This document shows, one piece after another, positions 10,520 to 64,000 of a stretch of DNA of 64,000 nt; within the stretch, counting starts at the first letter, position 1, and each line of letters opens with the position of its first letter. Location of the stretch: positions 1-64,000 of the forward strand of contig NZ_JAEULO010000031.1 in the NCBI RefSeq assembly GCF_016793705.1, read 5' to 3'. Origin of the DNA: Tabrizicola sp. GTDB lineage: Bacteria > Pseudomonadota > Alphaproteobacteria > Rhodobacterales > Rhodobacteraceae. The translations under genes and the position numbers were made by a program. The notes beneath the pieces are model-generated. The model saw only the letters and a program-made list of their open reading frames with translations. It searched no databases and was not told the origin of the DNA.

Positions 10520-10611
10520 TTTCCAGCGGCGTCAGCCGTTCGCGGCTGGCCTTGTGCGACGGAACCGCTAGGCTTCGGCGTACTGGGTTTGTTGCGTCAA
10601 TGGAGGTCGCG

Positions 10612-11085: not shown

Positions 11086-11093
11086 ACGACGAA

Positions 11094-11123
11094 GGCCGCG
11101 CCCTGAAGCGCGGCCTTTCTTTT
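11094..11123 (+). terminator. Terminator after cytochrome b561
   Basis: GGCCGCG / CGCGGCC stem followed by TTTCTTTT. It lies between convergent genes and may also serve the sulfurylase transcript from the other side, although the T-run is on the plus strand. Confidence 0.75.
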
Positions 11124-11137
11124 CCAGGGCGCCGACA

Positions 11138-47761: not shown

Positions 47762-47773
47762 ACAGGGGGAACC

Positions 47774-48778: not shown

Positions 48779-48858
48779 AGGGAGAGAGACGACAGAACCA
48801 AAGACCAGACCACCCGGACGCGAAGCATCGCGCCGGTTCCAACCCAGGGAGTTGAACC

Positions 48859-49788
48859 ATGAAGAAGACCATCCTGACCTCGGCGCTGGCCCTCGGCCTC
48901 GCCATCGGCGCGCCCGTCTTCGCGCAGGAGACCTATTTCCCCATCATCGCCAAGGGCTTCAGCCACCAGTTCTGGCAGGCGGTGAAGGCGGGGGCCGAGG
49001 AAGCCGCCGCGCGCAATGGCGTGACGATCACCTTCGAGGGCCCGAACACCGAAGCCGAGATCGACAAGCAGACCGACATCCTGAACGCCGCCATTGCCAA
49101 GGCGCCGCAGGGCCTGGGCTTTGCCGCTCTGGACAGCCAGGCGCAGGTTCCGGCGCTCCAGAAGGCCGCCGACGCGGGCATCCCCATCGTCGCCTTCGAC
49201 TCGGGCGTGGAAAGCGATCTGCCGCTGACCACCTGCACCACCGACAACATGGCGGCGGCGGCGGCGGCGGCGGACGGGCTGGCCAAGGCCATCGGCGAGG
49301 AAGGCAAGATCGCCGCGGTGATCCATGACCAGACCTCGGCCACCGGTATCGGGCGTCGCGACGGGTTCCTGAACCGGATCAAGGAGGCCTACCCGAACAT
49401 CGAAGTGGTGGACGTCCAGTATGCCAACGACGCGCTGAAGGCGACCGACAACGTCAAGGCGATGCTTCAGGCCAACCCCGACATCAAGGGCATCTTCGCC
49501 TCGAACGAAGGTGCGGCCATCGGTCTGGCGGTCGCGATCAAGGAATCCGGAGCGCAGATCGTCGGCGTGGGCTTCGACTCCGGGAAAACCCAGAAGGATG
49601 CCATCATGGACGGCACCCTGATCGGCTCTGTCACGCAGAATCCGGTCGGCATCGGCCAATGCGTCGTGGATAGCCTGGCGAAGGCGATCAAGGGCGAGGA
49701 ACTGCCCAAGGTCATCGACACCGGCTTCTACTGGTACGACAAGACCAACATGGCCGACGAGAAGATTGCCGCCGTTCTCTACGATTGA
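48859..49788 (+). CDS. Sugar ABC importer, binding protein
   Basis: A 309-residue periplasmic protein of the RbsB/LacI fold. The signal peptide ends LAIGAPVFAQE. The sequence has KGFSHQFWQAVKAGAEEAAA at the N-terminus, AGIPIVAFDSGV in the middle and VGVGFDSGKTQKDAIMDGTL toward the end. It is the last gene of the operon, about 80 bases after the permease, the usual place for the binding protein in some CUT2 systems. The ligand-contacting residues do not let me choose the sugar. Confidence 0.92.
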   Translation: MKKTILTSALALGLAIGAPVFAQETYFPIIAKGFSHQFWQAVKAGAEEAAARNGVTITFEGPNTEAEIDKQTDILNAAIAKAPQGLGFAALDSQAQVPALQKAADAGIPIVAFDSGVESDLPLTTCTTDNMAAAAAAADGLAKAIGEEGKIAAVIHDQTSATGIGRRDGFLNRIKEAYPNIEVVDVQYANDALKATDNVKAMLQANPDIKGIFASNEGAAIGLAVAIKESGAQIVGVGFDSGKTQKDAIMDGTLIGSVTQNPVGIGQCVVDSLAKAIKGEELPKVIDTGFYWYDKTNMADEKIAAVLYD

Positions 49789-49834: not shown

Positions 49835-50785
49835 TCAGCCGATCTTCGCGCGCTGAACCAAAGGCGAGCGACCGAAATGGCTGCGATAGACTTTCGAGAA
49901 ATGCGAGGTCGACTGGAACCCGCAGGCCATGGCGATTTCGGTCACCGACTGCTCGGTCTGCACCAGCAGGTTCTGCGCCCGGTTCAGCCGCATCTCCATG
50001 AAATAGTGCTTGGGCGTCGAGTTCAGATAGCGCGCGAACAGCCGTTCCAGCTGTCGCGTCGAAATGCCCAGCTCATCCGCGATCAGGCTGGGAGAGTCCG
50101 GCGCCTCGATGCTGCTCTCCATGATCGCGATGGCGCGCTTCAGATGCTCGTTGCGCATCCCGTGCCGTGACTGGATCGACACCCGTTGCGCCGCCGACCC
50201 CTCGCGCACGGCATTGTAGACCATCTGGTCGGCGACTTCGGTCGCCAGACCCGCGCCATGCGCCTTGCCGATCAGATGCAGCATCAGGTCGGCCGCCGCC
50301 GTCCCCCCGGAGGCGGTGATGATCTTTTCCCGCGCGACGAAGACATTGCGGACCAGGCGGACCTCCGGGAATTCTTCCTGGAACAGGTCGTGCCAGGCCC
50401 AGTGCACCGCCGTCTCCACCCCGTCCAGAAACCCGGCCTTCGCCAGCACATAGGCGCCGGAACAGATCGCGCCCAAGGGCGTGCCCGACGCCCGCTCGCG
50501 CCGCAGCCAGTTCAGTACCGGCGCCGTGGTGTGCGACTGCACATCGACGCCCGAGATCACGAACAGCCGGTCGGCGTGGCGGGTCGGCTCCAGCCCCGCC
50601 CCGGTCAGCGTGACCGATCCGTTGGAGCAGGTTGCGGTCTTGCCGTTCTCGCTGGCGAGCGTCCAGCGGTAAAGCGGCTTGCCCGAGACCAGGTTGGCGA
50701 TCCTGAGCGGTTCGAGCGCGCAGGAAAAGGCGATATGGGTGAATTCCGGCAGCAGGAAGAAGCTGAAGTGCTGGGTCTCGATCAT
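49835..50785 (-). CDS. GATase1/AraC regulator, GlxA or GbdR-like
   Basis: A 316-residue regulator with an N-terminal DJ-1/PfpI-like domain (residues 1-190; FFLLPEFTHIAFSCALEPLR and GAICSGAYVLAKAGFLDG) and a C-terminal AraC helix-turn-helix pair. The pair reads ADELGISTRQLERLFARYL and VTEIAMACGFQSTSHFSKVY. This layout is shared by GbdR and CdhR, which control glycine-betaine and carnitine catabolism in Pseudomonas. It is downstream of proVWX on the same strand, separated by a terminator hairpin. A role in betaine sensing is inferred from family plus context. Confidence 0.8.
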   Translation of the reverse strand: MIETQHFSFFLLPEFTHIAFSCALEPLRIANLVSGKPLYRWTLASENGKTATCSNGSVTLTGAGLEPTRHADRLFVISGVDVQSHTTAPVLNWLRRERASGTPLGAICSGAYVLAKAGFLDGVETAVHWAWHDLFQEEFPEVRLVRNVFVAREKIITASGGTAAADLMLHLIGKAHGAGLATEVADQMVYNAVREGSAAQRVSIQSRHGMRNEHLKRAIAIMESSIEAPDSPSLIADELGISTRQLERLFARYLNSTPKHYFMEMRLNRAQNLLVQTEQSVTEIAMACGFQSTSHFSKVYRSHFGRSPLVQRAKIG

Positions 50786-50807
50786 GACGCTTATCCTACA
50801 GGCGAAA

Positions 50808-50831
50808 GGGCCGCCCCGGAAGGCGGCCCCT
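50808..50831 (-). terminator. Terminator after proX
   Basis: On the minus strand GGGGCCGCC and GGGCGGCCC form a stem around TTCCG, followed by TTTCG. It separates the transporter genes from the downstream regulator. Confidence 0.55.
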
Positions 50832-50850
50832 TGCGCTCATCTGTCAGGCG

Positions 50851-51840
50851 TCACTTCGCTGCGGCGCGGGCCGCAGCCAGCCAGGAATCGTAGTCGGCCT
50901 GGTGCGCGGCGATCCATTCGTCGGCGTGGCGTTGCAGGTCTTCGGGCTTGTCCTCGCCCTTGGAAATGCGCAGTGCCTCGGCCGAGACGTCGTTGATGTC
51001 GATCTTGGCCGCTTCGAACAGCGCCTTGGCAGCCGGGTTGGCTTCCAGGAAGTCGTTGCGCGCCACGACGCGGATCGAGTCGACGGCGAAGCCCAGGTTC
51101 TTGCCGTTGAACTCGGTGTTCGCGGTCGCGCCATCGGGCAGCGGGGTGCCTTCCGGAACCGACAGCCATTCGGCATCCTTGCCCGGGACCAGCTCACCGG
51201 CGACCCAGTAGGGAACCCAGGTGTAATAGAGGATCGACCCGCCGTTATCCTTGCGTGCCATCGCGTCGCCGATCATCGCCGGATAGGCGCCCTGGTTGTG
51301 CGAGACGGTGTCGCGCAAGCCAAGCGCATCGAGATGCGTCTCGATCACCCGCTCGCAGCCCCAGCCGGGGATACAGCCCGCAAGGTCGGCCTTGCCGTCG
51401 CCATCGGCGTCGAAGCGCTTGGCGATTTCCGGGTCCTTCAGCATCGACAGGTCGGTGACGCCCGCCTGGTAGCTGGCTTCATCAACCATGTAACCCTGGA
51501 TCGCGCCGTCGATGTAGGTGCCGACCTTCGACATCACCGCATCGCCGCCGGCCTCCTGGAAGAAGGCGTCATGCAGCACGTCCCAGCTGACGGCCATGAA
51601 GTCCGCATCGCCCGCGCCGACCGCCAGGTGCATGGTCTGGTATTCGGCCTCGTTCGGGGTGGCGATGGTATAGCCCAGGTCTTCCAGCGCCTTGAACAGG
51701 ATCAGGTGCTGCATGTGCTCCTCGATCTGCGTCGGCATGATCGGGCGCACGGTCACGCCCTCGCCGGGCTTGTCGGCGTCCTGCGCGAAGGCGGGGACCG
51801 CAAGGGCCAGCGCCAAAGCCGTGGTCATGAACAGTTTCAT
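50851..51840 (-). CDS. proX: Glycine/proline-betaine ABC importer, binding protein
   Basis: A 329-residue periplasmic binding protein of the OpuAC/ProX family. The signal peptide ends LALAVPAFAQD. The mature part has VTVRPIMPTQIEEHMQHLIL and later DFMAVSWDVLHDAFF, EDLGYTIATPNEAEYQTMHL and LYYTWVPYWVAGEL, which contains Trp and Tyr suited for a quaternary-amine cage. GGGAGA precedes the ATG. It is the last of proV-proW-proX. Because it adjoins an hpbD-type catabolic cluster, proline betaine or hydroxyproline betaine is the likely ligand. Confidence 0.88.
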   Translation of the reverse strand: MKLFMTTALALALAVPAFAQDADKPGEGVTVRPIMPTQIEEHMQHLILFKALEDLGYTIATPNEAEYQTMHLAVGAGDADFMAVSWDVLHDAFFQEAGGDAVMSKVGTYIDGAIQGYMVDEASYQAGVTDLSMLKDPEIAKRFDADGDGKADLAGCIPGWGCERVIETHLDALGLRDTVSHNQGAYPAMIGDAMARKDNGGSILYYTWVPYWVAGELVPGKDAEWLSVPEGTPLPDGATANTEFNGKNLGFAVDSIRVVARNDFLEANPAAKALFEAAKIDINDVSAEALRISKGEDKPEDLQRHADEWIAAHQADYDSWLAAARAAAK

Positions 51841-51861
51841 TCGGTGTCTCCCGGTTGGTTT

Positions 51862-52800
51862 TCAGGTGGTCTTCTTGAACATGGCGGTGATCAGGCCCAC
51901 CGGCCCGGTCTCCCACCAATGGCGATGCCCGCGGTCCCGGCCCGACCGGCCAAGCCCCTGGGTGATCCGGTCCAGCACGATGGCCAGCATGACGATGCCG
52001 AGGCCGCCAACGATGGCCTTGCCCGCATCCAGCCGCCCCATCGCCCGCAGCACTTCGTTGCCGAGCCCCTTGACGGAAATCATCGAGGCGATGACCACCA
52101 TCGACAGGCTCAGCATGATTGTCTGGTTCAACCCGGCCAGAATGGTCGGCGTCGCCAGCGGCAGCTCGACCTTGCGCAGGATCTGCCCCGGCGAGGCCCC
52201 GAACGCCCGCGCCGCCTCCACCACGCTGGGGTTCACCCCCCGGATGCCAAGGCTGGTCAGCCGCACCAGCGGCGGCAGCGCGAAGATGATCGTCACGATC
52301 ACGCCCGAGACGTTGCCGATCCCGATCATCATCACGACCGGGACCAGATAGACGAAGGCCGGGATGGTCTGCATCGTATCCAGCACCGGCCGGATGAAGC
52401 CCTCGAACCGGTCGCTCTTGCCCGCCAGCACGCCCAAAGGTAGCCCGATCAGCACGCAGAGGATGACCGAGGCCACCACGATCGCCAGCGTCGTCATGGC
52501 GAGCCCCCAGGCCTCGGGTGCGAGCAGGCCGAGGATCACCAGACAGGCGCCCACCACGATGGCCCCACGCCGCCCGGCGGCCTGCCAGGCGATCAGCACC
52601 AGCACGACCAGCATCGCCATCGGCGGCGTCGCCTGCAAAGCGCTCTCGATCCCGACGATCACCGTTTCGAAGAACCGCTTGATCGGCTGGATCATCTCGC
52701 GGTTCGAAATCGCCCATTGCTTGATGCCATCGGCCCAGGACGCGATGCCCAGGTCGATCGAAGCGAAGGGGTTCAGCCAGTTGAAACCTTCGTCCGCCAT
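51862..52800 (-). CDS. proW: Betaine ABC importer, permease
   Basis: A 312-residue ProW-type permease. The N-terminal amphipathic part DEGFNWLNPFASIDLGIASW is followed by about six membrane segments. The EAA loop reads EAARAFGASPGQILRKVELP, and the family stretch AFVYLVPVVMMIGIGNVSGV is present. The ATG shares a base with the proV stop. It exports no signal of its own and works with ProV and ProX. Confidence 0.93.
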   Translation of the reverse strand: MADEGFNWLNPFASIDLGIASWADGIKQWAISNREMIQPIKRFFETVIVGIESALQATPPMAMLVVLVLIAWQAAGRRGAIVVGACLVILGLLAPEAWGLAMTTLAIVVASVILCVLIGLPLGVLAGKSDRFEGFIRPVLDTMQTIPAFVYLVPVVMMIGIGNVSGVIVTIIFALPPLVRLTSLGIRGVNPSVVEAARAFGASPGQILRKVELPLATPTILAGLNQTIMLSLSMVVIASMISVKGLGNEVLRAMGRLDAGKAIVGGLGIVMLAIVLDRITQGLGRSGRDRGHRHWWETGPVGLITAMFKKTT

Positions 52801-53870
52801 CACGCAGCCCTCTCTTCGTCACGTCCCTGGATGCCGCGTAGAAGCGCGCGCTTCGTCACCACGCCCACCGGCTGGCCTTCGGCCGCGATCAGGATCGGGT
52901 GATCCGTCCCCACCGCCAGGTCGACCAACTCGTTCAGGTTCATCTCGGGCTTGCCCACCGGCCAGCCGCCCGTCTCCTGCGGGCCCTGCGCCTGCACATA
53001 AGCGGCGAAGGGCTGCATGATCCGCGCCGCTGTCACCAGGTCCAGCTTGGAGATTCCGGCCACGAAATCAGCCACATAATCATCTGCAGGCTGGGTGACG
53101 ATCTCCTCGGGAGTGCCGATCTGCACCAGCACCCCGTCCTTCATGATCGCGATCCGGTCGCCGATGCGGATCGCCTCGTCCAAGTCATGCGTGATGAAGA
53201 TCGTGGTCTTGTGCAGTTCCGCCGACAGCTCCATGAACGTGCCCTGCAACTGCCGCCGGATCAGCGGGTCCAAGGCACTGAAGGGTTCGTCCATCAGCAG
53301 GATCGTCGGGTCCGCCGCCAGCGCCCGGGCCAGGCCCACCCGCTGCTGCATCCCGCCCGAAAGCTCGTCAGGGTATTTCCGGTCCCAGCCGGTCAGGTCC
53401 ACCATGTCGATGGCCTTCGCCGCCACCTTGGCCCGCTCGGTCTCGGACACGCCGCGCACTTCCAGCGAGAAGGCTACATTGTCGCGCACTGTCCGGTGCG
53501 GCATCAGCGCCATCGCCTGAAACACCATGCCGATCTTTTCCGCGCGAAGTTTGCGCAGCGTTTCGGCATTCATCGCGTTAACGTTCTGCCCCTCGATGAA
53601 CACCGTGCCCGAGGTCGGCTCGATCAGCCGGTTGATGTGGCGGATCAGCGTCGATTTCCCCGACCCCGACAGCCCCATGATGCAGAAGATCTCGCCCCGC
53701 CCCACGCTGAAGCTCGCGTCCTGCACCCCGACGACGCAATCGAACTCTTCACGGATATCCTTTTTTGACAGGCCCTTCGACCGCACGGCCTCCATCGCCT
53801 GACGCGACCTGTCACCGAAAATCTTCCAGATCCCCTCGCAGCGGATCACGTCCTCACGGGCATCAGCCAT
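52800..53870 (-). CDS. proV: Betaine ABC importer, ATPase
   Basis: A 356-residue ProV-type ATPase. Residues to about 60 form the ProV-specific N-terminus with SKKDIREEFDCVVGVQDASF. Walker A is GLSGSGKSTLIRHI, the signature is ELSGGMQQRVGLARAL, and Walker B is ILLMDEPFSALDP. A CBS-like regulatory region is at the C-terminus (PILIAAEGQPVGVVTKRALL), as in osmoregulated uptake systems. The start MADARE follows GGAGAG. It is divergent from gntR across a short AT-richer gap. Confidence 0.93.
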   Translation of the reverse strand: MADAREDVIRCEGIWKIFGDRSRQAMEAVRSKGLSKKDIREEFDCVVGVQDASFSVGRGEIFCIMGLSGSGKSTLIRHINRLIEPTSGTVFIEGQNVNAMNAETLRKLRAEKIGMVFQAMALMPHRTVRDNVAFSLEVRGVSETERAKVAAKAIDMVDLTGWDRKYPDELSGGMQQRVGLARALAADPTILLMDEPFSALDPLIRRQLQGTFMELSAELHKTTIFITHDLDEAIRIGDRIAIMKDGVLVQIGTPEEIVTQPADDYVADFVAGISKLDLVTAARIMQPFAAYVQAQGPQETGGWPVGKPEMNLNELVDLAVGTDHPILIAAEGQPVGVVTKRALLRGIQGRDEERAA

Positions 53871-53917
53871 GCAGAATCTCTCCCCCCGGTTTCCAGACTT
53901 CAACCACAAAACTTTTC

Positions 53918-53925
53918 TGTAGACA
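53918..53925. promoter_or_regulatory. Candidate GntR operator
   Basis: TGTAGACA is a perfect palindrome in the divergent proV-gntR gap, in the TGT-N2-ACA form used by FadR/FCD-type GntR regulators. A wider TGTAG...CTACA repeat spans 53918-53947. Confidence 0.4.
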
Positions 53926-54006
53926 ATATGTATTTTATCCGACTACACAGACGGCAAGCTACCTGAGTCTCTGTGAAGACCGGCGAGATCAGGCAGGAGA
54001 GAACCC

Positions 54007-54729
54007 GTGGACAGCGATTCCCGCAGCAAGAAGACGCAATGCATCGAGGACCTGCGCCGCCGGGTCCTGACCGAGGCATTGCAGCCGGGCATTTACCTGG
54101 ACGAGGTGGAACTCGCTGAAACCTACGGCATTTCCCGCCCGCCCCTGCGCGAGGTGCTGCGTCAGCTGGCGGGCGAAGGCTACCTCGTCCTGCACGAGAA
54201 CCGCGGCGCGCAGGTCGCGCCGATGTCGCACAAGACGATGCGCAACTTCTTCGTCGCGGCGCCGATGATCTATGCGGCGACCACCCGCCTTGCGGCGGAG
54301 AACGCGACGCCCGCGCAGATCGTGAAGCTCAAGGAATGCCAATGGGCCTTTCGCCAGGCGATCAAGTCGGGCGATTCGGCGGAACGCGCGCTCGGGAACG
54401 AACGCTTCCATTCCATCATCGGCGAAATGGCCGACAACGAATTCCTGATGCCCTCGTTGCGCCGCCTGCTGATCGACCACACCCGCATCGGGATGACCTT
54501 CTACAACCCCCGCAAGCTGCACCTCGCGCCCCAGCGCGAGCTTGCCGCCGACCAGCACGACCAGTTCATCGACCTGATCGAGGCTGGCGATGCCGACGCT
54601 GCCGGCGACCTCGCAGTCGCCCATTGGGAGCTTTCGCGCCAGCAGATCGAAAGCTTCGTTACTCCCGAAAGCATGACCATTCCACTTGGCCGCGCGCCAG
54701 GGCAGTCCGAAACACGAGGAGCCTCATGA
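54007..54729 (+). CDS. GntR-family (FCD) transcriptional regulator
   Basis: A 240-residue regulator with an N-terminal winged helix (EVELAETYGISRPPLREVLR, then EGYLVLHENRGAQVAPMS) and a C-terminal FCD sensor domain (residues 85-225). The FCD domain holds metal- or ligand-binding His in NERFHSIIGEM, LLIDHTRIG and ADQHDQF. It heads the operon of the DapA-like, aldehyde dehydrogenase, reductase and oxidase genes and overlaps the first of them by four bases. It likely controls this operon and divergent proVWX. Confidence 0.9.
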   Translation: MDSDSRSKKTQCIEDLRRRVLTEALQPGIYLDEVELAETYGISRPPLREVLRQLAGEGYLVLHENRGAQVAPMSHKTMRNFFVAAPMIYAATTRLAAENATPAQIVKLKECQWAFRQAIKSGDSAERALGNERFHSIIGEMADNEFLMPSLRRLLIDHTRIGMTFYNPRKLHLAPQRELAADQHDQFIDLIEAGDADAAGDLAVAHWELSRQQIESFVTPESMTIPLGRAPGQSETRGAS

Positions 54730-55628
54730 AATTCGAAGGCATCTATACACCCGCCATCACACCGCATCGTGAGGATGGGTCCATCGACCGCGACGCATTC
54801 GTCGCCCAGCTGGAATATCTGATCGCGCAGGGCGTCCACGGCATCATCAACGGCGGCTCGACCGGGGAATACTACGCCCAGTCGATGCAGGAACGGCTGG
54901 AGATGGCCTCCCTCGCCCGCGATGTCACCAAAGGCCGCACGCATCTGATGGTCGGCACCGTGGCGATCCGGCTGGAGGACTCGATCACCATGGCCGAACA
55001 CGCGGCCAAGATCGGGGCCGATTCGATCCTCGTCGGCTCGCCGCCCTATTCGGTTCCGACCGAACAGGAAAACGCCTTGAACGCGCTGGCCATCGACCGC
55101 GCCGCCGATCTGCCGATCATGCTCTACAACTACCCGGGCCGGATGGGCATCAACATGGGCGAGGAGTTTCTCGACCGTGTCGGCCGGTCCGCCAACTTCG
55201 CGGCCATCAAGGAATCCTCGGGCGATATCAACCGGGTGCACCTTCTCGCCCGCGACTACCCGCATATCCAGATGTCCTGCGGCATGGACGACCAGGCGCT
55301 GGAATTCTTCGCCTGGGGCGCGCGCAGCTGGGTCTGCGGTGGCTCGAACTTCCTGCCCGCCGAACACCTCGCCCTCTACAAGGCCTGCGCGGTGGAGGGC
55401 AACTTCGACAAGGGCCGCCGGATCATGTCGGCGCTGATGCCGCTGATGCGGGTGCTGGAACAGGGAGGAAAGTTCATCCAGTGCATCAAGCACGGCTGCG
55501 AGATGATGGGCCAGTACGCCGGCCCCCCGCGCCCCCCGCTCAAAGGCCTGAACAAGGACGACAAGCGCCAGCTGGAACAGACCGTGCGCGTCCTCAAGAC
55601 CACCATCGCCCAGATCGTTGCGGAGTAA
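54726..55628 (+). CDS. DapA-family lyase/deaminase
   Basis: A 300-residue TIM-barrel aldolase of the dihydrodipicolinate synthase superfamily. The Schiff-base Lys is Lys162 in FAAIKESSGD, the catalytic Tyr is Tyr134 in LYNYPGR, and the GSTGEYYAQ loop is at 44-52. True DapA functions elsewhere; catabolic members include 4-hydroxy-2-oxoglutarate aldolase, KDG aldolase and the deaminase that turns 1-pyrroline-4-hydroxy-2-carboxylate into 2-oxoglutarate semialdehyde. The next gene is an aldehyde dehydrogenase and hpbD is nearby, so the deaminase is my preferred call. This is inferred from context. Confidence 0.72.
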   Translation: MKFEGIYTPAITPHREDGSIDRDAFVAQLEYLIAQGVHGIINGGSTGEYYAQSMQERLEMASLARDVTKGRTHLMVGTVAIRLEDSITMAEHAAKIGADSILVGSPPYSVPTEQENALNALAIDRAADLPIMLYNYPGRMGINMGEEFLDRVGRSANFAAIKESSGDINRVHLLARDYPHIQMSCGMDDQALEFFAWGARSWVCGGSNFLPAEHLALYKACAVEGNFDKGRRIMSALMPLMRVLEQGGKFIQCIKHGCEMMGQYAGPPRPPLKGLNKDDKRQLEQTVRVLKTTIAQIVAE

Positions 55629-55631
55629 GCC

Positions 55632-57125
55632 ATGAGCCTCCTGACCACCGAAGAATACAAGGCCATCGCCGCCGGTCTCTCCTTCCCGACGACCGCCTTC
55701 ATCGACGGCCACTTCCGCCCCGCAATCAGCGGCAAGACCTTCGACACGCTGAACCCCGCCACCGGCGCAGTGCTGGCCAAGGTCGCCGCCTGTGGCCCCG
55801 AGGATGTGGACCTCGCCGTCCAGAAAGCCCGCGACGCCTTCGAGGATGGCCGCTGGTCGCGCCTGCACCCGAAGGAACGCAAGGAAACGCTCATCAAGCT
55901 GGCGAAGCTGGTGAAGCGCAACGCCCGCGAACTCGCTGTGCTGGAATCGCTCGACTCAGGGAAAACGATCTACGACTGCGAACAGGTCGATGTGCCGGAA
56001 ACCATCAACTGCCTGACCTGGCACGCCGAGCTGATCGACAAGATCTACGACCAGGTCGCCCCGGCCAGTGACAACCACATCGCCATGATCGTCCGCGAAC
56101 CCGTGGGCGTCGTCGGCCTCGTCCTGCCCTGGAACTTCCCCCTCCTGATGCTCGCCTGGAAGATCGGCCCCGCCTTGGCCGCCGGCTGCTCGGTCATCGT
56201 CAAACCCGCCGAGGAAACCCCCCTCACCACCCTCCGCATGGCCGAACTGGCGATGGAGGCCGGCATCCCGCCCGGCGTCTTCAACGTCGTCCCCGGCGCC
56301 GGCCCCGACGTGGGCGAACCTATCGGTCGCCACATGGACATCGACGCCGTCTCCTTCACCGGCTCGACCGAAACCGGCCGCCGCTTCCTGCGCTATGCCG
56401 CCGAATCCAATCTCAAGGAAGTCACCCTTGAAATGGGCGGCAAGAACCCCGCCGTGGTCCTCGATGATGCCGAGAACATCGACCGTGTCGCCGCCCATAT
56501 CGTCAACGGCGCCTTCTGGAACATGGGCGAGAATTGCTCCGCCTCGTCCCGCCTGATCGTGCAGAAGGGCATCAAGGACGAACTTCTGAAACGCATCGTC
56601 GCCCATACCCGCGAATGGCCGATGGGCGACCCTCTCGACCCGACCAACCGCGTCGGCGCGCTTGTCTCGAAGGCGCATTTCGACAAGGTGGCCAGCTACC
56701 TCGACAAAGGCCCGAAAGTCATCCTCGGCGGCAAGGCCGAAAAGGGTTTCGTCGAACCCACCATCCTCGACACCCCTCGCGACGCGAAGCAGGCGAAGGA
56801 AGAAATCTTCGGCCCCGTCCTCTCCGTCCTCACCGTCGACAGCTTCGACGAGGCCATTGCGTTGGCCAACGACACCGAATACGGCCTCGCCGCCAGTATC
56901 TTCACCGCCAACGTCAAGCGCGCGCTCCGCGGCGCCCGCGCGCTGCGCGCCGGGACCGTCACCGTGAACTCCTTCGGCGAGGGCGACATCTCCACCCCCT
57001 TCGGCGGCTTCAAGCAATCGGGGTTCGGTGGCCGCGACAACGGCATCCACGCCCATGACCAGTACACTCAGGTCAAGACGATCTGGGTCGACCTCGCCGA
57101 CGACGCGGACGAAGCCGTCGGCTGA
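55632..57125 (+). CDS. NAD(P)-dependent aldehyde dehydrogenase
   Basis: A 497-residue ALDH. The catalytic Cys is Cys302 in NMGENCSASSR and the general base is Glu267 in TLEMGGKNP. The nucleotide-binding region has FTGSTETGRRF. The start and end resemble E. coli PuuC (for example AMIVREPVGVVGLVLPWNFP and TPFGGFKQSGFGGRDNGIHA). It begins three bases after the DapA-like gene. If that gene makes 2-oxoglutarate semialdehyde, this would give 2-oxoglutarate. A gamma-aminobutyraldehyde or betaine-aldehyde substrate is the alternative. Confidence 0.9.
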   Translation: MSLLTTEEYKAIAAGLSFPTTAFIDGHFRPAISGKTFDTLNPATGAVLAKVAACGPEDVDLAVQKARDAFEDGRWSRLHPKERKETLIKLAKLVKRNARELAVLESLDSGKTIYDCEQVDVPETINCLTWHAELIDKIYDQVAPASDNHIAMIVREPVGVVGLVLPWNFPLLMLAWKIGPALAAGCSVIVKPAEETPLTTLRMAELAMEAGIPPGVFNVVPGAGPDVGEPIGRHMDIDAVSFTGSTETGRRFLRYAAESNLKEVTLEMGGKNPAVVLDDAENIDRVAAHIVNGAFWNMGENCSASSRLIVQKGIKDELLKRIVAHTREWPMGDPLDPTNRVGALVSKAHFDKVASYLDKGPKVILGGKAEKGFVEPTILDTPRDAKQAKEEIFGPVLSVLTVDSFDEAIALANDTEYGLAASIFTANVKRALRGARALRAGTVTVNSFGEGDISTPFGGFKQSGFGGRDNGIHAHDQYTQVKTIWVDLADDADEAVG

Positions 57126-57127
57126 TC

Positions 57128-57892
57128 ATGCGCGTCGGGTTCCTCGGCACCGGAGAGATCACCGCCGCCATGGTGCGCGGCCTGAAAGGCCAGGGTCACA
57201 GGATCCTGGTCTCGCCCCGCAACGCCGCCATGGCCGCGACCCTCGCCGCCGAAGTGCCCGAAGTCGCCATCGCCCCCAACGAACAGGTGGTAGAGGGGTC
57301 CGATGTGGTCTTCCTCTGCCTCCTCGCCCGCGTGGCAGCCGAGGTTCTCCCCAGCCTTCCCTTCCGCGCGGGCCAATCCGTCATCTCGGTCATGGTCGAC
57401 GCCCCCCTCGCCACCCTGCGCACCCTTTGCGCCCCCGCAACCGACATCGCCATCACCATTCCGCTCCCTCCGATCACCACCGGCGGCTGCCCGCTGCCGG
57501 TCTACCCGGCCTCCCCTGCGCTCGACGCCCTTTTCGGCGAGAAGAACCTGATCCTGCCGCAACCCTTCGAGGCCGCCCTCAACGCCCATCTCGGCGCCTC
57601 GGCCCTCTGCTCGCCGATCCTCGACCAGCTCCTCACCGCGACCGAATGGCTGGCCGGTCACACCGGCAACCCCGCCGCTGCCGAGGCCTATATCGCCGCC
57701 ATGATCCGCGGCTACCTGCCCGAGCGCGCGGCAGAGGGCGACCTTGCCGAGGCACTGAAAAAGCTTTCCACCGAAGGCGGCCTCAACGCCACCTTGCGCG
57801 CGGCGATGGCGCCTGCGAAAGAATCGCTCCGCCAAGGCCTGACCGCATTCCACAGCCGCCTCGGGCTGGATGATCCCAAAGGACGGACATGA
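57128..57892 (+). CDS. Pyrroline-5-carboxylate-reductase-like protein
   Basis: A 254-residue NAD(P)-binding reductase of the ProC family. GFLGTGEITAAMVRGLKGQG is the Rossmann start. The second half is the helical ProC dimer domain, though less conserved than housekeeping ProC: the usual GSGPAY segment is absent and ALCSPILDQLLTATEWLAGH is in its place. A catabolic role is more likely than proline synthesis. In this setting it might reduce a cyclic imine such as 1-pyrroline-2-carboxylate, which is a guess. It is coupled to the next gene by an ATGA overlap. Confidence 0.7.
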   Translation: MRVGFLGTGEITAAMVRGLKGQGHRILVSPRNAAMAATLAAEVPEVAIAPNEQVVEGSDVVFLCLLARVAAEVLPSLPFRAGQSVISVMVDAPLATLRTLCAPATDIAITIPLPPITTGGCPLPVYPASPALDALFGEKNLILPQPFEAALNAHLGASALCSPILDQLLTATEWLAGHTGNPAAAEAYIAAMIRGYLPERAAEGDLAEALKKLSTEGGLNATLRAAMAPAKESLRQGLTAFHSRLGLDDPKGRT

Positions 57893-59229
57893 CCGCCTTC
57901 ACCGCCCGCCGCACCCCCGTCCACAAGGGCCCCGCCGCCTGGTCGGCCATCCTGCCCGGCCAGCCCGCCCCGGTCAGCCTTCCCGGCAACCAGACCGCCG
58001 ACGTCGCCATCATCGGCGGCGGCTTCGCGGGTCTTTCCGCCGCCCGCCGGTTGCGCCAGCTGGACCCGACGCTCAAGGTCGCCGTCCTCGAAGCCTCCCG
58101 CCTCGCCGAAGGTGCCTCGGGCCGCAATTCCGGCTTCATGATCGACCTGCCGCACGAGCTTACCTCCGACGATTACGCGGGTCACGGCGACGACCGCGGC
58201 ATGATCGCGCTGAACCGCCAGGCCATCGCCTTCGCCAAGGGCGCGGTGCAGGACTACGGCATCGCTCCTGCCTATTTCGACCCCATCGGCAAGGTGAACG
58301 GCGCGGCCTCCGCCACCGCCGATGCGCTGAATCGCAGCTACGCCGACCACCTCACCTCGCTTGGCGAGCCGAACGAACGCCTTGACGCGCAGGGCATGGC
58401 CGACCTCACCGGCAGCCGCCACTATGTCTCCGGCCTCTACACCCCCGGCACGGTGATGCTGCAACCCGCAGGCTTCATCCGCGGCTTCGGCGAAGGCCTC
58501 CGCGCCGTTGGCACCGGCGTCTGGGAGAACAGCCCCGTCACCGCCTTCAGCCGCTCCGGCAGCGGCTGGGCCGTCACCACCGCCAAGGGCACCGTCAGTG
58601 CAGGCAAGGTGATCCTCGCCAACAACGGCCATCTCGAAAGCTTCGGCTTCGCGAGAGACAGGCTGATGCACGTCTTCCTCTACGCCTCGATGACGGTGGA
58701 CCTGCCCCCCGAGACGCTGAAGCAGCTCGGCGGCCAGCCCCGCTGGGGCGTCACGCCCTCCGACCCGATGGGCACCACCATGCGCCGGATCGACACCGCC
58801 CTTGGCGGCAACCGCATCATCACCCGCACCTGCGCCAGCTTCCTGCCCGGGATGGAGCCTTCCGACGCCACACTGAGACGCACCGCCACCGTCCACCGCC
58901 AGAAATTCGCCGACCGCTACCCCGCGCTTCGGGACGTGAAGCAGGAATACACCTGGGCCGGGCACCTCTGCCTGACCCGCAACGCCGTCTCCATCGCGCG
59001 CGAGCTGGAACCGGGCCTTTACGCCGCCACCGTCTGCAACGGCCTCGGCACCGCGCGGAGCACCCTCACCGGCATCGCCGCCGCCGAACTGGCGATGGGC
59101 CAGGAAACCGACGCCACCCGCCATTTCGCCGCCGAGGCCCAGCCCAGCAAACTCCCCCCGAAACCCTTCTCCACCCTTGGCGCGAATATCTTCCTGCGCT
59201 TCAAGGAATGGCGCGCCGGGGCGGAATGA
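57889..59229 (+). CDS. FAD-dependent amine/D-amino-acid oxidoreductase (DAO family)
   Basis: A 446-residue flavoprotein. VAIIGGGFAGLSAARRLRQL is the FAD-binding motif, and LAEGASGRNSGFMIDLPHE is the loop typical of the PuuB/OrdL and sarcosine-oxidase-like branch. C-terminal NGLGTARSTLTGIAAAELA closes the FAD site. It should oxidise a secondary or primary amine to the imine. Next to an hpbD gene it is a good candidate for cis-4-hydroxy-D-proline (or D-proline) oxidation. It is the last gene of the GntR-led operon. Confidence 0.85.
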   Translation: MTAFTARRTPVHKGPAAWSAILPGQPAPVSLPGNQTADVAIIGGGFAGLSAARRLRQLDPTLKVAVLEASRLAEGASGRNSGFMIDLPHELTSDDYAGHGDDRGMIALNRQAIAFAKGAVQDYGIAPAYFDPIGKVNGAASATADALNRSYADHLTSLGEPNERLDAQGMADLTGSRHYVSGLYTPGTVMLQPAGFIRGFGEGLRAVGTGVWENSPVTAFSRSGSGWAVTTAKGTVSAGKVILANNGHLESFGFARDRLMHVFLYASMTVDLPPETLKQLGGQPRWGVTPSDPMGTTMRRIDTALGGNRIITRTCASFLPGMEPSDATLRRTATVHRQKFADRYPALRDVKQEYTWAGHLCLTRNAVSIARELEPGLYAATVCNGLGTARSTLTGIAAAELAMGQETDATRHFAAEAQPSKLPPKPFSTLGANIFLRFKEWRAGAE

Positions 59230-59304
59230 ACCGTCGCGATCAACCCAGATCGCCCTCGGCGAGCGGCCCAGAAACCGCCAATAGCCCCTCCCCGCGACCC
59301 GCAG

Positions 59305-59324
59305 GGTGCGTGATTTCACGCACC
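59305..59324. other. Perfect 9-bp inverted repeat between convergent genes
   Basis: GGTGCGTGA and TCACGCACC flank two T bases in the 186-base gap between the oxidase and the first SDR gene. There is no strong T-run. A second palindrome, TGTCCACCGTGGACA, follows at 59400-59414. Both may be transcription-end or repeat elements. Confidence 0.6.
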
Positions 59325-59415
59325 TTCCTTTCGCCTGCATTCCTTGTCAAACGGTTAACGCCCACGCGCAAGCCATTGATTTCGCGCAGTCGGATTTTTT
59401 GTCCACCGTGGACAC

Positions 59416-60144
59416 TCACGGCAGCGACAGCTTCGCCATCCGTCCGCCGTCTACCGTCCAGACCTGCCCGGTGACGAACCCCGCCTCCTCGGAGGCCAGC
59501 CAGGCCACCAGCGCCGCCACCTCCTCCGGCCGCCCGGTTCGCCCGACCGGATGGATCTTCCCGATGTTCGCCCGGAACCCCACCGGATCCGGCATCCCCT
59601 CGACGAAGGCCTCGTTCAACTCGGTGTCGATCCATCCCGGAGCCACCGCATTGCACCGCACCTCCCGCGAGTGATCGACGGCAACGGCCCGGGTCAGCCC
59701 GTGCAGCCCGGCCTTCGAGGCACAGTAGGCCGCATGGGTCGGGTTCGACCCCAGCCCCTCGATGCTGCCGATGTTGACGATGCTGCCCCGGACCGCCCGC
59801 AGATGCGGCAGCGCCGCCTTGATCAGCAGGAACGGCGCGGTCAGGTTCACCCGCAGCGTCCGCTCCCAGTCGGCAAGGCTCATCTCCTCGACCCCCGCCT
59901 CCTGCATGATCCCGGCGTTGTTGACCAGCACGTCCAGCCGCCCGGCCCGCCCGACGACCTCTCCCACCGCCGCCGCCGGGGCCGCAGCATCGGAGAAGTC
60001 CGCCTCGATCCCCTCGAACTCGGCATCCGACCCGCGCTGCGCGGTGAAGACCCGTGCCCCCTCCGAGGCCAGCCTCCGGGCAATCGCCTGCCCGATCCCC
60101 GACCGCCCGCCCGTGACCAGGGCCACCTTGCCGTCGAACCTCAT
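59416..60144 (-). CDS. Short-chain dehydrogenase/reductase (SDR 1)
   Basis: A 242-residue classical SDR. Cofactor motif [12 protein letters not shown], structural NNAG in [11 protein letters not shown], and the catalytic Ser-Tyr-x3-Lys in NIGSIEG and YCASKAG are intact. An alcohol or ketone on a catabolic intermediate is the likely substrate. It starts inside the SDR 2 stop codon. It ends the minus-strand operon. Its 242 residues equal the neighbour's length, but the two sequences differ clearly, so duplication is old. Confidence 0.92.
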
Positions 60145-60869
60145 TTGACCGGCTTCCCGCCATTCACCTCGACCACCGCGCCGACCATGTAGCGCGCGGC
60201 GTCGGAAGCGAGAAACAGGATCACATCGGCGATGTCCTCCGGTTCCGCGATCCGGCCCAGCGGCACGGTCTTGCCCAGCTCCGCCACCGCCGTATCCGGA
60301 TCGAACCCGCGCTTGGCAAAGCCCGTGCGCAGCATCGGCGTGTTGACCTCGTTCGGGGCCACCGCGTTGATGCGGATGCCCTTGTCGGCATGATCCATCC
60401 CCATGCACTGCGTCAGCGAGGCAATCGCAGCCTTGGTCATGCAGTAGACGGCGTGCCCCGGCCCCGGCCTGAGCCCCCAGCAGGAGGCGACATTGACGAT
60501 GGCCGACCCCGGCGGCAGCAGCGGGATCGCCGCCCGGCAGATGCGGAACGGCGCCTGCACGTTCACCCCCACCGACAGGTCCCAATCGGCATCCGAGGTC
60601 TCGTCCACCTTGCCCCGCGTGATCACGCCCGCGTTGTTGACGATGATGTCGAGGCCGCCCAAAGCCGACTTCGCCGCCGCAGGAAGCCCATCGGCATAGG
60701 CAGCTTCCAGCAGGTTCCCCGGCAGATGCGCCTCGGCCTCCACCCCCGACACGTCGCGGTCCGCCACCGCCACAAGCACGCCCCGCGCCCGCAGCGCCTT
60801 CACAACCGCCGCCCCGATGCCGCCCGCGGCCCCCGTGACCAGCGCCTTCTTGCCTTTGAGATCGCTCAT
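60141..60869 (-). CDS. Short-chain dehydrogenase/reductase (SDR 2)
   Basis: A 242-residue classical [22 protein letters not shown] is the cofactor motif, followed by [12 protein letters not shown] and the catalytic YCMTKAA. An Asp in [10 protein letters not shown] at the end of strand two suggests NAD rather than NADP. It begins nine bases after hpbD. The substrate is unknown; oxidation of the 4-hydroxyl group of a hydroxyproline derivative is one possibility. It precedes SDR 1. Confidence 0.92.
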
Positions 60870-60877
60870 CTTCTTCC

Positions 60878-61981
60878 TCACCCGAACGCGAGAACCGGCT
60901 TGCCGAACATGCCTTCTTCTGGCTCGACCCCCAGGCCGGGGCCTTCCGGCAGCTTGATGTGGCCGCCGACGATATTGACGCCGCTCCTGTCGTAGTTGCC
61001 CTCGATGTAGGGCGCGGCCAGCCAGACCCCTTCGTTCAGCCGAGGTTGCACGGTCGCGCCGATATGGGTGCAGGCCGCCGCGATGATGTCGCCACCCCAG
61101 GCGTCGTCGCAGGTGTGGGGCAGGCTGCGCGCCTCGCAGATGTCGCGGAAGGCGGCCATCTGCTGCAACCCGCCGATCCGCGTGACCTTCATGCCGAAGC
61201 CGTCGACCAGGCCCTGCCCCGCGACGCGCACCACCGTCGCGAGGTCCTCGCCCATCTCGTCGAGGTAGATACCGTGATGGACCTGCCCCCGGATCGCCGC
61301 CAGTTCCTCGATGGTGTTGCAGGGCTGCTCGAGAATGAAGGGAATATCCTGGCATTCGCGCGACAGCCGCAGCGCATCGCGCGTCGGAAGGCCCCGGTTG
61401 CCGTCCGCCGCCAGCCGCACGCCCTTGCCCTTGATCACGTCCCAGACCTTGCGCAGCACGGCGATGTCGATTTCCACCGGACGCCCGCCGATCTTGATCT
61501 GCAGCCGGGGATAGCCCTCGGCAACCTTCTCGGCGGCGATGCGGGCGATCTCGTCGGGCTCTCCGACGCCGGTGGCGTAATAGGAGGGGACGCTTTCCTG
61601 CGCCACCCCGCCCAGAAGCTCGGCGACCCGCAAGCCGGTCGCCTTGCCCATGATGTCATGCGCCGCAATGTCCACCGCGGCCTTGGCATAGCGATGCCCG
61701 TTCAACAGGCTGTCCATCTTCCGCCGCAGGCTCAGCGGATGCGGCGAGGCGCCGATCAGCCCCGGCCCCATCTCCTCCAGCGCCGCGCGTGCCCCCTTGG
61801 CATGCGCCGGAGCATAGGTGGACCCCACCGGGCAGGTCTCGCCCCAACCGACAAGGCCGGTGTCGGTGACGATCTTCACCAGCGTGGTGTCCAGCGAATA
61901 CACCTTGGCATTGGCCATCTTGTAGGGCCCGTTCTTGACCGGCAGGTCATGGGCGTAGACGTGGAGTTCCTTGATCTTCAT
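60878..61981 (-). CDS. hpbD: 4-hydroxyproline betaine 2-epimerase (HpbD)
   Basis: A 367-residue enolase-superfamily enzyme (mandelate racemase/MLE type). Lys163 ([11 protein letters not shown]) and Lys265 ([10 protein letters not shown]) are the two acid-base residues. Asp193, Glu218 and Asp241 are the magnesium ligands. Tyr56 and Trp320 sit at the positions I recall for the cation-pi contacts in HpbD of Pelagibaca bermudensis. The whole sequence matches that protein closely from memory. It converts trans-4-hydroxy-L-proline betaine into the cis-D form, and also acts on proline betaine. A betaine importer is nearby. Confidence 0.88.
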
Positions 61982-61992
61982 CGGTCTTTCGC

Positions 61993-62022
61993 AAAAAAAT
62001 TGGCCACCCCGGAAGGCGGCCG
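61993..62022 (-). terminator. Terminator between the MttB-like gene and hpbD
   Basis: On the minus strand GGCCGCC / GGGGTGGCC pair around TTCC and are followed by AATTTTTTT. It lies between two genes that otherwise appear co-oriented, so hpbD may be lowered by partial termination or have its own promoter. Confidence 0.7.
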
Positions 62023-62032
62023 GTCACAGGGA

Positions 62033-63583
62033 TCAGTGTTCGGTGTTCAACTCGTCCACCGCCGGAATCTCGCGCTCCCGCCGGGCGATGTAATCCAGCA
62101 AAGCCTCGTTGACGCCTTCGTCCAGCTTCGGCTCCTCGTAGTCGGCCAGCAGCTGCCGCGCCCGGTCCAGCGCGCGCTGGGTGATCTCGACCGAACCCTC
62201 GGCCTGCCATTGCTCGATACTGTTGTTGTCGAACAGCTTCGGCATGAAGAAGGCCCGTTCGAAGTTCTCCAGCGTGTGCGGATGGCCCAGGTAATGCCCG
62301 CCGGGCCCCACGTCGCGCACTGCCTGCATCGCCTCGTCAAAGTCGTCCCAGCGCGGGCCTTCCGCCATGCGGTAGCCCATCTGGCACATCTCGGCATCGA
62401 CGACGAACTTGGCGATGGAACAGTGCATTCCGGCCTCGTTCCACCCGGCGGAGTGCCAGATGTAGTTGGCCCCGGCGTGCAGGACCGCGTTCATCGTCAT
62501 GGCACTTTCATACCCCGCCTGCGCGTCGAAGGTCTTGGCCCCGCCGAGAAGGTTCGAAGTGCGCCACGGCACGTTGTAGTAGCGCGCCATCTGCCCGATC
62601 ATGAAATTCATGAGGGAAATTTCCGGCGTCCCTGCCATCGGCGCGCCGGATTTCATGGAGACGGTCGAGAGGTAGTGGCCGTAGATCGCCGGGGCGCCCT
62701 TGCGGATCACCTGCGTATAGGCCAGCGCCGACAGCGCCTCGGCGTTGAGCTGCGCCACGGCGGGGGCGACGGAGGCGGGGGTGTTCGCCCCGCCGAGGAC
62801 GAAGGGCGAGCAGAGGACGGGCTGCTTCCGCTTCACGAAGGCGCGCATGGCCGACAGCATCGTCTCGTCCCAGACGAGGGGCGAGTTGCCGTTGCAGTTG
62901 CCGGTGGTGACGGGGGTTTCCTCCATCACATCCTTGCCGAACAGGATCTCGCACATCGCCATCACATCCTCGGCGTTCTTGCCCGAGGTCGTCATGCCCA
63001 TGAAGGTCTTGTCCGAGTGTTTCATCGACGAATAGGTGATGTGCAGGTGCCGGTGGCTGACCTTCATGTCCATCGGCTCGACGATGTGGTGCGCGGTGGA
63101 ATGCAGCGCGGGCGACATATGGGCCAGCTTGTGGAAGGTGTTCAGGTCGGCGATCGTCGGCCAGCGGCGCACGTCGTCGAGGTCGCGGATGAAGGGCGCG
63201 CCGGTCATCGGGACAAAGATCGAATGCTTGCCGCCGAAGGGCAGGCTGCGCTCGGGGTTCCGCGCCCGATAGGTCCAGCCCGAGGGAATGGTTGCGATCA
63301 GTTCCCGCACAAGCCCACGGTCCAGATGCACCCGGTCGCCGACCACCTTGGCGCCCGCCCGCTTCCAGTCGGCTAAGGCGATCTCGTCGCGGAAGGTCAC
63401 GCCGACCTCTTCCAGGATCGACATCGAGGCATTGTCGATCTGTTCCACCCGCGCGGGGTCCATCACCTCGCAGTCGGGGATGCCGCGTTTCAGCGCGGGG
63501 AGCATGTCGAAATCCGGGGCCGAGCGGAGCGCACGGCGGGCCCCGCGGCCTCCGGCACGGGCGGTTCTGACGACTTCGTTCAT
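62033..63583 (-). CDS. Non-pyrrolysine MttB-family methyltransferase
   Basis: A 516-residue protein of the trimethylamine methyltransferase (MttB) superfamily. It has the family N-terminus (RSAPDFDMLPALKRGIPDCE then MSILEEVGVTFRDEIA) and the barrel segments PFVLGGANTPASVAPAVAQL and TPEISLMNFMIGQMARYYNV. No in-frame TAG is present, so it does not use pyrrolysine and belongs with MtgB, MtpB and MtcB, which demethylate glycine betaine, proline betaine and carnitine to a corrinoid protein. AGGAGGG precedes the ATG. It sits beside hpbD. A corrinoid protein or reactivase is not in the window. Confidence 0.85.
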   Translation of the reverse strand: MNEVVRTARAGGRGARRALRSAPDFDMLPALKRGIPDCEVMDPARVEQIDNASMSILEEVGVTFRDEIALADWKRAGAKVVGDRVHLDRGLVRELIATIPSGWTYRARNPERSLPFGGKHSIFVPMTGAPFIRDLDDVRRWPTIADLNTFHKLAHMSPALHSTAHHIVEPMDMKVSHRHLHITYSSMKHSDKTFMGMTTSGKNAEDVMAMCEILFGKDVMEETPVTTGNCNGNSPLVWDETMLSAMRAFVKRKQPVLCSPFVLGGANTPASVAPAVAQLNAEALSALAYTQVIRKGAPAIYGHYLSTVSMKSGAPMAGTPEISLMNFMIGQMARYYNVPWRTSNLLGGAKTFDAQAGYESAMTMNAVLHAGANYIWHSAGWNEAGMHCSIAKFVVDAEMCQMGYRMAEGPRWDDFDEAMQAVRDVGPGGHYLGHPHTLENFERAFFMPKLFDNNSIEQWQAEGSVEITQRALDRARQLLADYEEPKLDEGVNEALLDYIARREREIPAVDELNTEH

Positions 63584-63708
63584 GGCGTCCCTCCTGGCGC
63601 TGCGGTCGCGCCATCAGGCGTCGGATTGCGGGCATCCACAGTAGCGGCTGCGAAGCGGATCGGGGTTTTTGCGACATCCCCGACAGAGCGGCAGCCGCAG
63701 GCGGCCCC

Positions 63709-64000
63709 TCAACCCGCCCGCGCGAAGCTGTCGGCCGACGAGGCGGCCCAGGCCTCGGCGAACCGGGGCGAGGAGGCAGGGTCGGCGGTCAACTGGCCGG
63801 ACGCCAGCTGTTCGTATTGCTCGGCCAGAGAGATCACCTTGTCCGACGACGCCCGGCGCAGGAAATGATGCGGGCGCAGTTCGGAGGGATGCGCCAGTCC
63901 GGCGGCCGCGACCAGTTCGGCCAGCGCATGCAGCGTGTTCCGGTGGAAGCTTGCGACCCGAAGGGCCTTGTCCGGCACCACGATGGCCCGCTGGCGCAAC
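63709..64000 (-). CDS. FMN-binding glutamate-synthase-like protein, C-terminal fragment
   Basis: The last 97 residues of a gene that continues beyond the right edge. HRNTLHALAELVAAAGLAHP and SELRPHHFLRR match the end of FMN-binding glutamate synthase family proteins, the stand-alone version of the GltB synthase domain. Relatives include the large subunit of N-methylglutamate synthase. It is on the same strand as the MttB-like gene, 125 bases upstream. The start and the catalytic centre cannot be seen, so function is open. Confidence 0.65.
   Translation of the reverse strand, partial: LRQRAIVVPDKALRVASFHRNTLHALAELVAAAGLAHPSELRPHHFLRRASSDKVISLAEQYEQLASGQLTADPASSPRFAEAWAASSADSFARAG

Follow-up and report, generated by a model that had tools for sequence, protein, structure and literature searches.

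How does a bacterium remove the N-methyl groups of hydroxyproline betaine or proline betaine when the island that carries its epimerase HpbD has no Rieske demethylase? The question is raised by a stretch of 64,000 nucleotides from the alphaproteobacterium Tabrizicola sp. (assembly GCF_016793705.1, contig NZ_JAEULO010000031.1, positions 1 to 64,000), the whole of which is hereafter called the window, and specifically by the island at positions 49835-63583. The island is made up of three strand blocks: a regulator with the ProX, ProW and ProV transporter genes on the minus strand, a run from a GntR-family regulator gene to an FAD oxidase gene on the plus strand, and a run from two SDR genes (SDR2, SDR1) through hpbD to a methyltransferase gene of the non-pyrrolysine MttB family on the minus strand. 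A first-pass annotation had read it as a path for the breakdown of these betaines by a new demethylation route, leading from import through HpbD epimerisation, MttB-type demethylation and oxidation of the D-amino acid to 2-oxoglutarate. Our analysis suggests that the island probably encodes the published hpb pathway in a B12-dependent form, and that its MttB likely acts on (hydroxy)proline betaine within the HpbD pathway. We infer this substrate from the linkage of the two genes and from the exchange of MttB with a Rieske oxygenase-reductase pair.

To examine linkage, the contigs of GTDB genomes were scanned with HpbD, yielding 119 relatives, of which the best 80 were kept together with as much as 10 kb of sequence to either side, so that the sample leans toward close relatives. 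MttB was counted at a locus when identity reached 60% across a quarter or more of the protein, and other genes were counted at a set identity and a quarter of their length. The window's MttB subfamily was found in 43 of the 80 HpbD loci, spanning several orders, and the conserved linkage that the first-pass annotation had proposed as a check is indeed there. The sample comprises 38 loci with MttB and no Rieske component, five with both (L044 by its reductase alone), 12 with a Rieske component only (L064, L066 and L078 by a reductase match of 40-42% alone) and 25 with neither, among them L013, in which a contig edge cuts MttB to a 95-residue piece. A 140-residue MttB remnant in L035 is counted as present among the 43, and L017 and L019 are truncated where the examined stretch ends. 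MttB lies within 300 nt of HpbD and on the same strand in 27 of the 43 loci, and the linkage exceeds chance. The complete block of MttB, SDR1, SDR2, FAD oxidase, aldehyde dehydrogenase (ALDH), DapA-like lyase and GntR regulator is found at 24 of the 80 loci, and the block is complete except for a counted MttB at four more (L013, L034, L056, L075). The same set of genes, without the ProC-like reductase gene, makes up an island on plasmid pB of Cereibacter sphaeroides 2.4.1 (DQL45_RS21260-RS21315), where MttB (DQL45_RS21315) is 88% and HpbD (DQL45_RS21310) 75% identical to the window's proteins; near the HpbD gene on a Phaeobacter inhibens plasmid no MttB is listed within 9 kb, and linkage is not shown there. 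A Neorhizobium record devoid of annotation was left aside.

The MttB gene itself is an uninterrupted frame of 516 codons without in-frame stop or amber codon, and its PF06253 match covers positions 1-500 of 500. It scores 494 bits against PDB 4yyc and 347 bits against the glycine betaine methyltransferase 9yce. Identity to the window's protein is 75-96% in 42 of the 43 loci, and 64% in the L035 remnant. In a tree from which pieces shorter than 340 residues were omitted, the hpb-type MttB proteins form a clade of 43 tips, including the window's, separated from nine paralogues with support of 1.0 (as an unrooted split). The source genome has seven MttB-family genes in total. One paralogue, on contig C15 of this genome (L110:8760-10268), abuts an HpbA-like FMN oxidoreductase gene (10268-12292) on the same strand, possibly a second set of MttB followed by a flavin demethylase for another quaternary amine, and two others (L109:3301-4821 on C64 and L111:9793-11355 on C40) lie near large FAD proteins which, by eye, resemble dimethylglycine/sarcosine dehydrogenases.

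The exchange is clearest in Paracoccus onubensis (L056), where the genes run in the order Rieske oxygenase, reductase, HpbD, SDR1, SDR2, FAD oxidase, ALDH, DapA-like lyase, GntR, ProV, ProW, ProX and regulator. This is the window's island, with the Rieske pair standing where MttB would be. The L056 oxygenase scores 586 bits against PDB 3n0q and 536 bits against both 3vca, which we take to be the stachydrine demethylase of S. meliloti, and 4qup, which is named a demethylase. In the L056 genome a search at E 1e-15 yielded no match to the MttB family, and MtgC, the corrinoid protein to which such a methyltransferase would pass its methyl group, was not found either; the sole match to MtgC, at 33%, lies in a frame of 934 residues and is MetH-like by length. 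At three loci (L018, L022, L089) the Rieske pair and MttB are neighbours ahead of HpbD; in L018 an alcohol-dehydrogenase-like gene separates MttB from HpbD. As a marker of oxidative demethylation we also looked for fdhA (formaldehyde dehydrogenase) near HpbD, and found it at none of the 38 MttB-only loci, none of the five with both, three of the 12 Rieske-only loci and one of the 25 with neither; the direction is right, with too few cases to lean on.

Methyl transfer by an MttB protein needs partners, and the source genome encodes these in trans: corrinoid protein, pterin-binding methyltransferase and reductive activase. MtgC-like, DUF1638 and MtgE-like genes are on contig C33, an MtgD-like pterin-binding protein is encoded on C1 beside an apparent methylenetetrahydrofolate reductase (by eye, with no family match), and a RACo/RamA-like reductive activase is on C8. 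There are four B12-binding matches in the genome, one of them MtgC-like and none within a frame of MetH length. A comparable set of MtgC, MtgD, RamA and DUF1638 is described for Ruegeria pomeroyi and P. inhibens in PMC12478193. We then asked whether the corrinoid protein accompanies the hpb-type MttB, and sought MtgC (at least 74% identity, with a contig-edge fragment in G005 scored as present) in 50 genomes, 43 of the MttB class and seven behind Rieske-only loci, and in the 29 behind the other 30 loci; one genome is common to the two sets, giving 78. With the L035 genome set to “no MttB”, both genes occur in 47 genomes, MtgC only in 14, MttB only in one (G025, a genome of 1.9 Mb) and neither in 16 (Fisher p = 1.1e-7, uncorrected for the descent that the genomes share). 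The L035 genome, that of Rhizobium freirei (G014), has no MtgC; its MttB remnant (L035:9425-9850) lies between the FAD oxidase and HpbD genes, and it has one further MttB paralogue elsewhere, at 30%.

The epimerase at the centre of the island can be assigned with some assurance. It scores as highly against PDB 4izg and 4j1o as against 4e8g, and 516 bits against 2pmq and 4h2h, all of which are presumably HpbD proteins, and it is 76% identical to the annotated hpbD product of Paracoccus pantotrophus. In the alignment K163, K265, D292 and W320 are present in 81 of 81 sequences and Y56 in 80, the remaining one having a gap; we take these five to be the catalytic or substrate-binding positions of HpbD. 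The call made in the first-pass annotation is supported. The name “cis-3-hydroxy-L-proline dehydratase”, offered by an NCBIfam model, was rejected, as its 283 bits fall below the cut-off of 500 and the match to 4e8g is far better. In Sinorhizobium meliloti AK57 the island on pSymA (L121) looks damaged, with the HpbD match split in two; no gene is listed there from the DHDPS gene to position 10103 in the PLSDB tables, which are incomplete.

Removal of one methyl group leaves a second. The first-pass annotation had noted one demethylation step not covered by visible genes, and no N-demethylase gene is indeed found within the island; outside the window, a good candidate for this step, acting in trans, is an HpbA-like flavoprotein encoded at C56:59489-61489. 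Over 671 residues it shares 69% identity with a Paracoccus homologue encoded near hpbD, and it is 78% identical to the first 191 residues of an annotated “N-methyl-L-proline N-demethylase HpbA”. At E 1e-200 or better, 37 of the 43 MttB-class genomes hold an HpbA-like gene. In L024 an HpbA-like flavoprotein gene (49%) is inserted between SDR2 and the FAD oxidase.

From these parts the following path may be drawn. ProXWV would import the betaine, and HpbD would epimerise C2, as expected from the family function and the conserved active-site residues. MttB would take the first N-methyl group and hand it to MtgC, encoded elsewhere in the genome; by analogy with MtgBCD of Ruegeria, MtgD would pass the methyl to tetrahydrofolate, and RamA and the DUF1638 protein would reactivate the cobalt. 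The HpbA-like flavoprotein, from its other contig, would remove the second methyl group, and the FAD oxidase, DapA-like lyase and ALDH would convert the resulting D-hydroxyproline to 2-oxoglutarate. The order of epimerisation and demethylation is not readable from the sequence.

Several observations weigh against this assignment, which is drawn from genome comparison. At 14 HpbD loci whose flanks are complete, neither MttB nor a Rieske component lies nearby. An oxygenase at least 45% identical to the hpb type is found somewhere in 28 of the 43 MttB-class genomes, indicating that MttB is often not the sole option, and six of the 43 are without an HpbA-like gene at E 1e-200. The association of MtgC with MttB is an indication only, since the genomes share descent, and MtgC is also retained for methionine synthesis. 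We know of no role for the two SDRs in the published hpb pathway. The DapA-like protein is only about 29% identical to the DHDPS type encoded next to FAD oxidase genes at certain other HpbD loci and belongs to a different branch, so that the deamination to 2-oxoglutarate semialdehyde proposed in the first-pass annotation is likely from superfamily and context, and less secure as to branch. Its path is supported in part, with respect to HpbD, the cross-order linkage, MttB at the Rieske position and a corrinoid machinery that is present and co-occurs; it needed amendment at the uncovered step, the SDRs, the DapA branch and the claim of a new route.

The presence of seven MttB-family genes alongside a single MtgC-like gene, together with the fact that the closest solved relative of the island ProX (PDB 1r9l) is a glycine betaine-binding protein, would suit an MttB that acts on another quaternary amine, such as glycine betaine or carnitine, imported by ProXWV, and that stands beside hpbD merely through a shared role in betaine catabolism. 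We consider this quite unlikely in view of the tight adjacency of MttB and HpbD across orders, the replacement of MttB in L056 by a stachydrine-type Rieske pair and its place in a separate clade; moreover, the MttB paralogues that lie within about 2.5 kb of mtgC elsewhere are 41-46% identical to the island MttB, i.e. they represent another subfamily.

A second possibility concerns the fate of the remaining methyl group. If its removal were skipped, the FAD oxidase would take N-methyl-cis-4-hydroxy-D-proline and the DapA-like lyase would free methylamine, to be used by the N-methylglutamate route; this would account for the lack of an N-demethylase gene inside the island and for the six MttB-class genomes in which the HpbA-like gene is missing, and the source genome does encode a protein that scores over the cut-off (665 bits) for TIGR03105, a type III glutamine synthetase model which we take to cover GmaS. 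Such a bypass appears rather improbable, however, when the source genome and most of the MttB class have the HpbA-like gene, and when six genomes (G023, G030, G031, G032, G033 and G035) have it no more than 1.2 kb from a gene for an hpb-type oxygenase, which ties it to this chemistry.

The statement in the first-pass annotation that no Rieske demethylase is present holds in the island and, at the level of the hpb type, across the whole assembly (94.5% complete), where nothing exceeds 32% identity. The genome does have three ring-hydroxylating oxygenase alpha subunits, unlinked to the island, and each was considered as a hidden demethylase and not favoured: they are merely 30-32% identical to the hpb-type oxygenase over 187-234 residues, as against 49-100% for the 13 oxygenase genes inside HpbD loci (the 100% being the query itself). 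That demethylation depends on one of these three, with MttB only salvaging methyl groups, is therefore highly improbable, even with hpb-type oxygenases in 28 of the MttB-class genomes, since the other 15 of the 43 have none at 45% or above.

With the island MttB taken to act on (hydroxy)proline betaine, comparison with known systems shows what is new. The island shares with the published hpb pathway HpbD, a betaine ABC transporter, an HpbA-like demethylase (here in trans) and oxidase, DHDPS and ALDH members as for trans-4-hydroxyproline (PMC4113996), and differs from it in having MttB in place of the Rieske oxygenase and reductase, in the two SDRs and in the lack of a linked formaldehyde dehydrogenase. 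The MtgBCD(E) system of Ruegeria pomeroyi DSS-3, in which glycine betaine demethylation is coupled to methionine synthesis (PMC12478193), likewise has a non-pyrrolysine MttB-family protein and the same kinds of MtgC, MtgD, RamA and DUF1638 genes, but the island MttB belongs to a separate, hpbD-linked clade and has a different proposed substrate. MtpB of Eubacterium limosum, a cobalamin-dependent proline betaine methyltransferase of an anaerobe (as cited in PMC12478193), is of the same superfamily and catalyses the reaction predicted here; its host is an anaerobic acetogen. The route would accordingly be new as a variant for this substrate and subfamily, and not as a chemistry, as cobalamin-dependent demethylation of proline betaine is known from MtpB. 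We know of no HpbD-type pathway in E. limosum. PMC12478193 (2025) reports up to seven MttB paralogues in marine and related bacteria, with substrates other than glycine betaine lacking assignment, and already proposes other methylated compounds as substrates of the additional paralogues in marine bacteria. A literature search, with most subscription papers outside its reach, returned no paper linking MttB to HpbD or to hydroxyproline betaine, and none that assigns this MttB subfamily. Each module is already known, MtpB in an anaerobe and MtgBCD in the marine glycine betaine route, and the combination proposed for this substrate would be new.

Linkage, exchange and co-occurrence with MtgC give one MttB subfamily a specific, testable substrate, and the presence of the island in C. 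sphaeroides 2.4.1 makes testing simple. If the assignment is true, two unrelated chemistries, an oxygenase and B12 methyl transfer, would substitute for each other in one catabolic operon, the choice of demethylase would follow whether the genome keeps MtgC, and the breakdown of a plant and algal osmolyte would be tied to the supply of vitamin B12.

The genes of the island are listed in the table below. Every gene named in the first-pass annotation is present in its place by family or profile match, but its list was incomplete: SDR1, SDR2 and the ProC-like reductase had been overlooked, and the SDRs have no place in the path that it proposed.

Table. Genes of the HpbD-MttB island, with positions in the window and the match on which each name is based.
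Gene product	Position	Strand	Match
GlxA-family (DJ-1/PfpI + AraC HTH) regulator, GbdR-like	49835..50785	-	PF01965, PF12833
ProX betaine-binding protein	50851..51840	-	NCBIfam ProX 400 bits, over cut-off
ProW permease	51862..52803	-	NCBIfam ProW 355 bits, under cut-off 439
ProV ATPase	52800..53870	-	NCBIfam TIGR01186 354 bits, over cut-off; ATG start checked
GntR-family regulator	54007..54729	+	GntR-type NCBIfam models, none reaching the cut-off
DHDPS (DapA)-family lyase, proposed Pyr4H2C deaminase	54726..55628	+	PF00701 172 bits
Aldehyde dehydrogenase (ALDH), proposed alpha-ketoglutarate semialdehyde dehydrogenase	55632..57125	+	PDB 7uyy 712 bits
ProC-like reductase, optional member	57128..57892	+	PF03807 56 bits
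DAO-family FAD oxidase, proposed D-(hydroxy)proline oxidase	57889..59229	+	PF01266 145 bits
SDR2, NADP-type motif	59416..60144	-	PF13561 197 bits
SDR1, NAD-type motif	60141..60869	-	PF13561 169 bits
HpbD, 4-hydroxyproline betaine 2-epimerase	60878..61981	-	PDB 4e8g 652 bits
Non-pyrrolysine MttB-family methyltransferase, proposed (hydroxy)proline betaine:corrinoid methyltransferase	62033..63583	-	PF06253 728 bits

The SDR pair is the least understood part of the island. Of the 43 MttB loci, 36 have both genes, as do six of the 37 other loci (L013, L034, L056, L064, L066 and L075). Sequences below 60% identity, shorter than 200 residues or interrupted by a stop were left out of the alignments. 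Beta strand 2 of SDR1 ends in an Asp in all 42 aligned sequences (41 from loci and the window's), and SDR2 has Gln36-Arg37 in 41 of 41 (40 and the window's). An Asp at the end of the second beta strand is, by the usual rule, a mark of NAD preference, and the motifs suggest that SDR1 is of the NAD type and SDR2 of the NADP type. Opposite cofactor motifs would suit a pair that inverts a secondary alcohol, which here would be the 4-hydroxyl; they hint, if weakly, that the two enzymes probably act on the ring hydroxyl and perhaps invert C4 by way of a 4-oxo intermediate. A gene resembling MDR-type alcohol dehydrogenases or quinone reductases is also found near HpbD at 18 of the 80 loci at 55% identity or above, in 14 of these within 300 nt (L014, L015, L018, L044 and L053 are among the loci), and its recurrence is a further hint of redox chemistry on the ring hydroxyl. 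A broader scheme may be put forward as unlikely, in which the island would funnel every stereoisomer of 4-hydroxyproline betaine to one product, HpbD inverting C2 and the SDR pair C4 via the 4-oxo form, while B12 methyl transfer would replace oxygen-dependent demethylation and deliver the first methyl group to folate and methionine without formaldehyde.

PMC4113996 places DAAO, DHDPS and ALDH members in the known lower part of trans-4-hydroxyproline (t4Hyp) catabolism. By profile, the FAD oxidase of the island scores 120 bits against an L-pipecolate oxidase model whose cut-off of 600 it does not reach, and the ALDH falls below the cut-off in all 25 ALDH models shown. The closest PDB chain to the DapA-like protein scores 123 bits, and none of the 60 chains shown is named a Pyr4H2C deaminase. 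The ProC-like reductase is found in four of the 80 loci at 69-82% identity and in a fifth at 38%. In L012, L014 and L022, genes of the proline racemase family are inserted between those for SDR2 and the FAD oxidase; sequence search detects proline racemases in these three, in L036 and in L089, with a shorter match in L032, whereas a search by peptide motif gave none and was evidently too strict. Racemase genes inside the island speak for hydroxyproline or proline as an intermediate.

Among the regulators, the GlxA-type protein scores 311 bits against the NCBIfam GbdR model and does not reach its cut-off of 480, and its counterpart in C. sphaeroides carries a GlxA family annotation; the GntR gene is retained in all 24 full islands. 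The island ProX scores 304 bits against PDB 1r9l, the E. coli protein, with Trp aligned at W65, W140 and W188, which presumably form the ligand cage of the latter.

The edge of the window at 64000 is no boundary of the island, as the contig continues to 94510. Immediately upstream of MttB and on the same strand is an FMN-type glutamate-synthase-like gene (L010:3709-5343, contig C27:63709-65343), found at 60% identity or above only in L012 among the 80 HpbD loci. About 8.5 kb beyond MttB lies a gene that by eye encodes a DadA-like D-amino acid dehydrogenase (L010:12132-13436, C27:72132-73436) and that could share the step of D-amino acid oxidation. Just ahead of the island and facing it, at 46238-49788 on the plus strand of the window, is a sugar-type ABC transporter consisting, by eye, of an ATPase, a permease and a binding protein.

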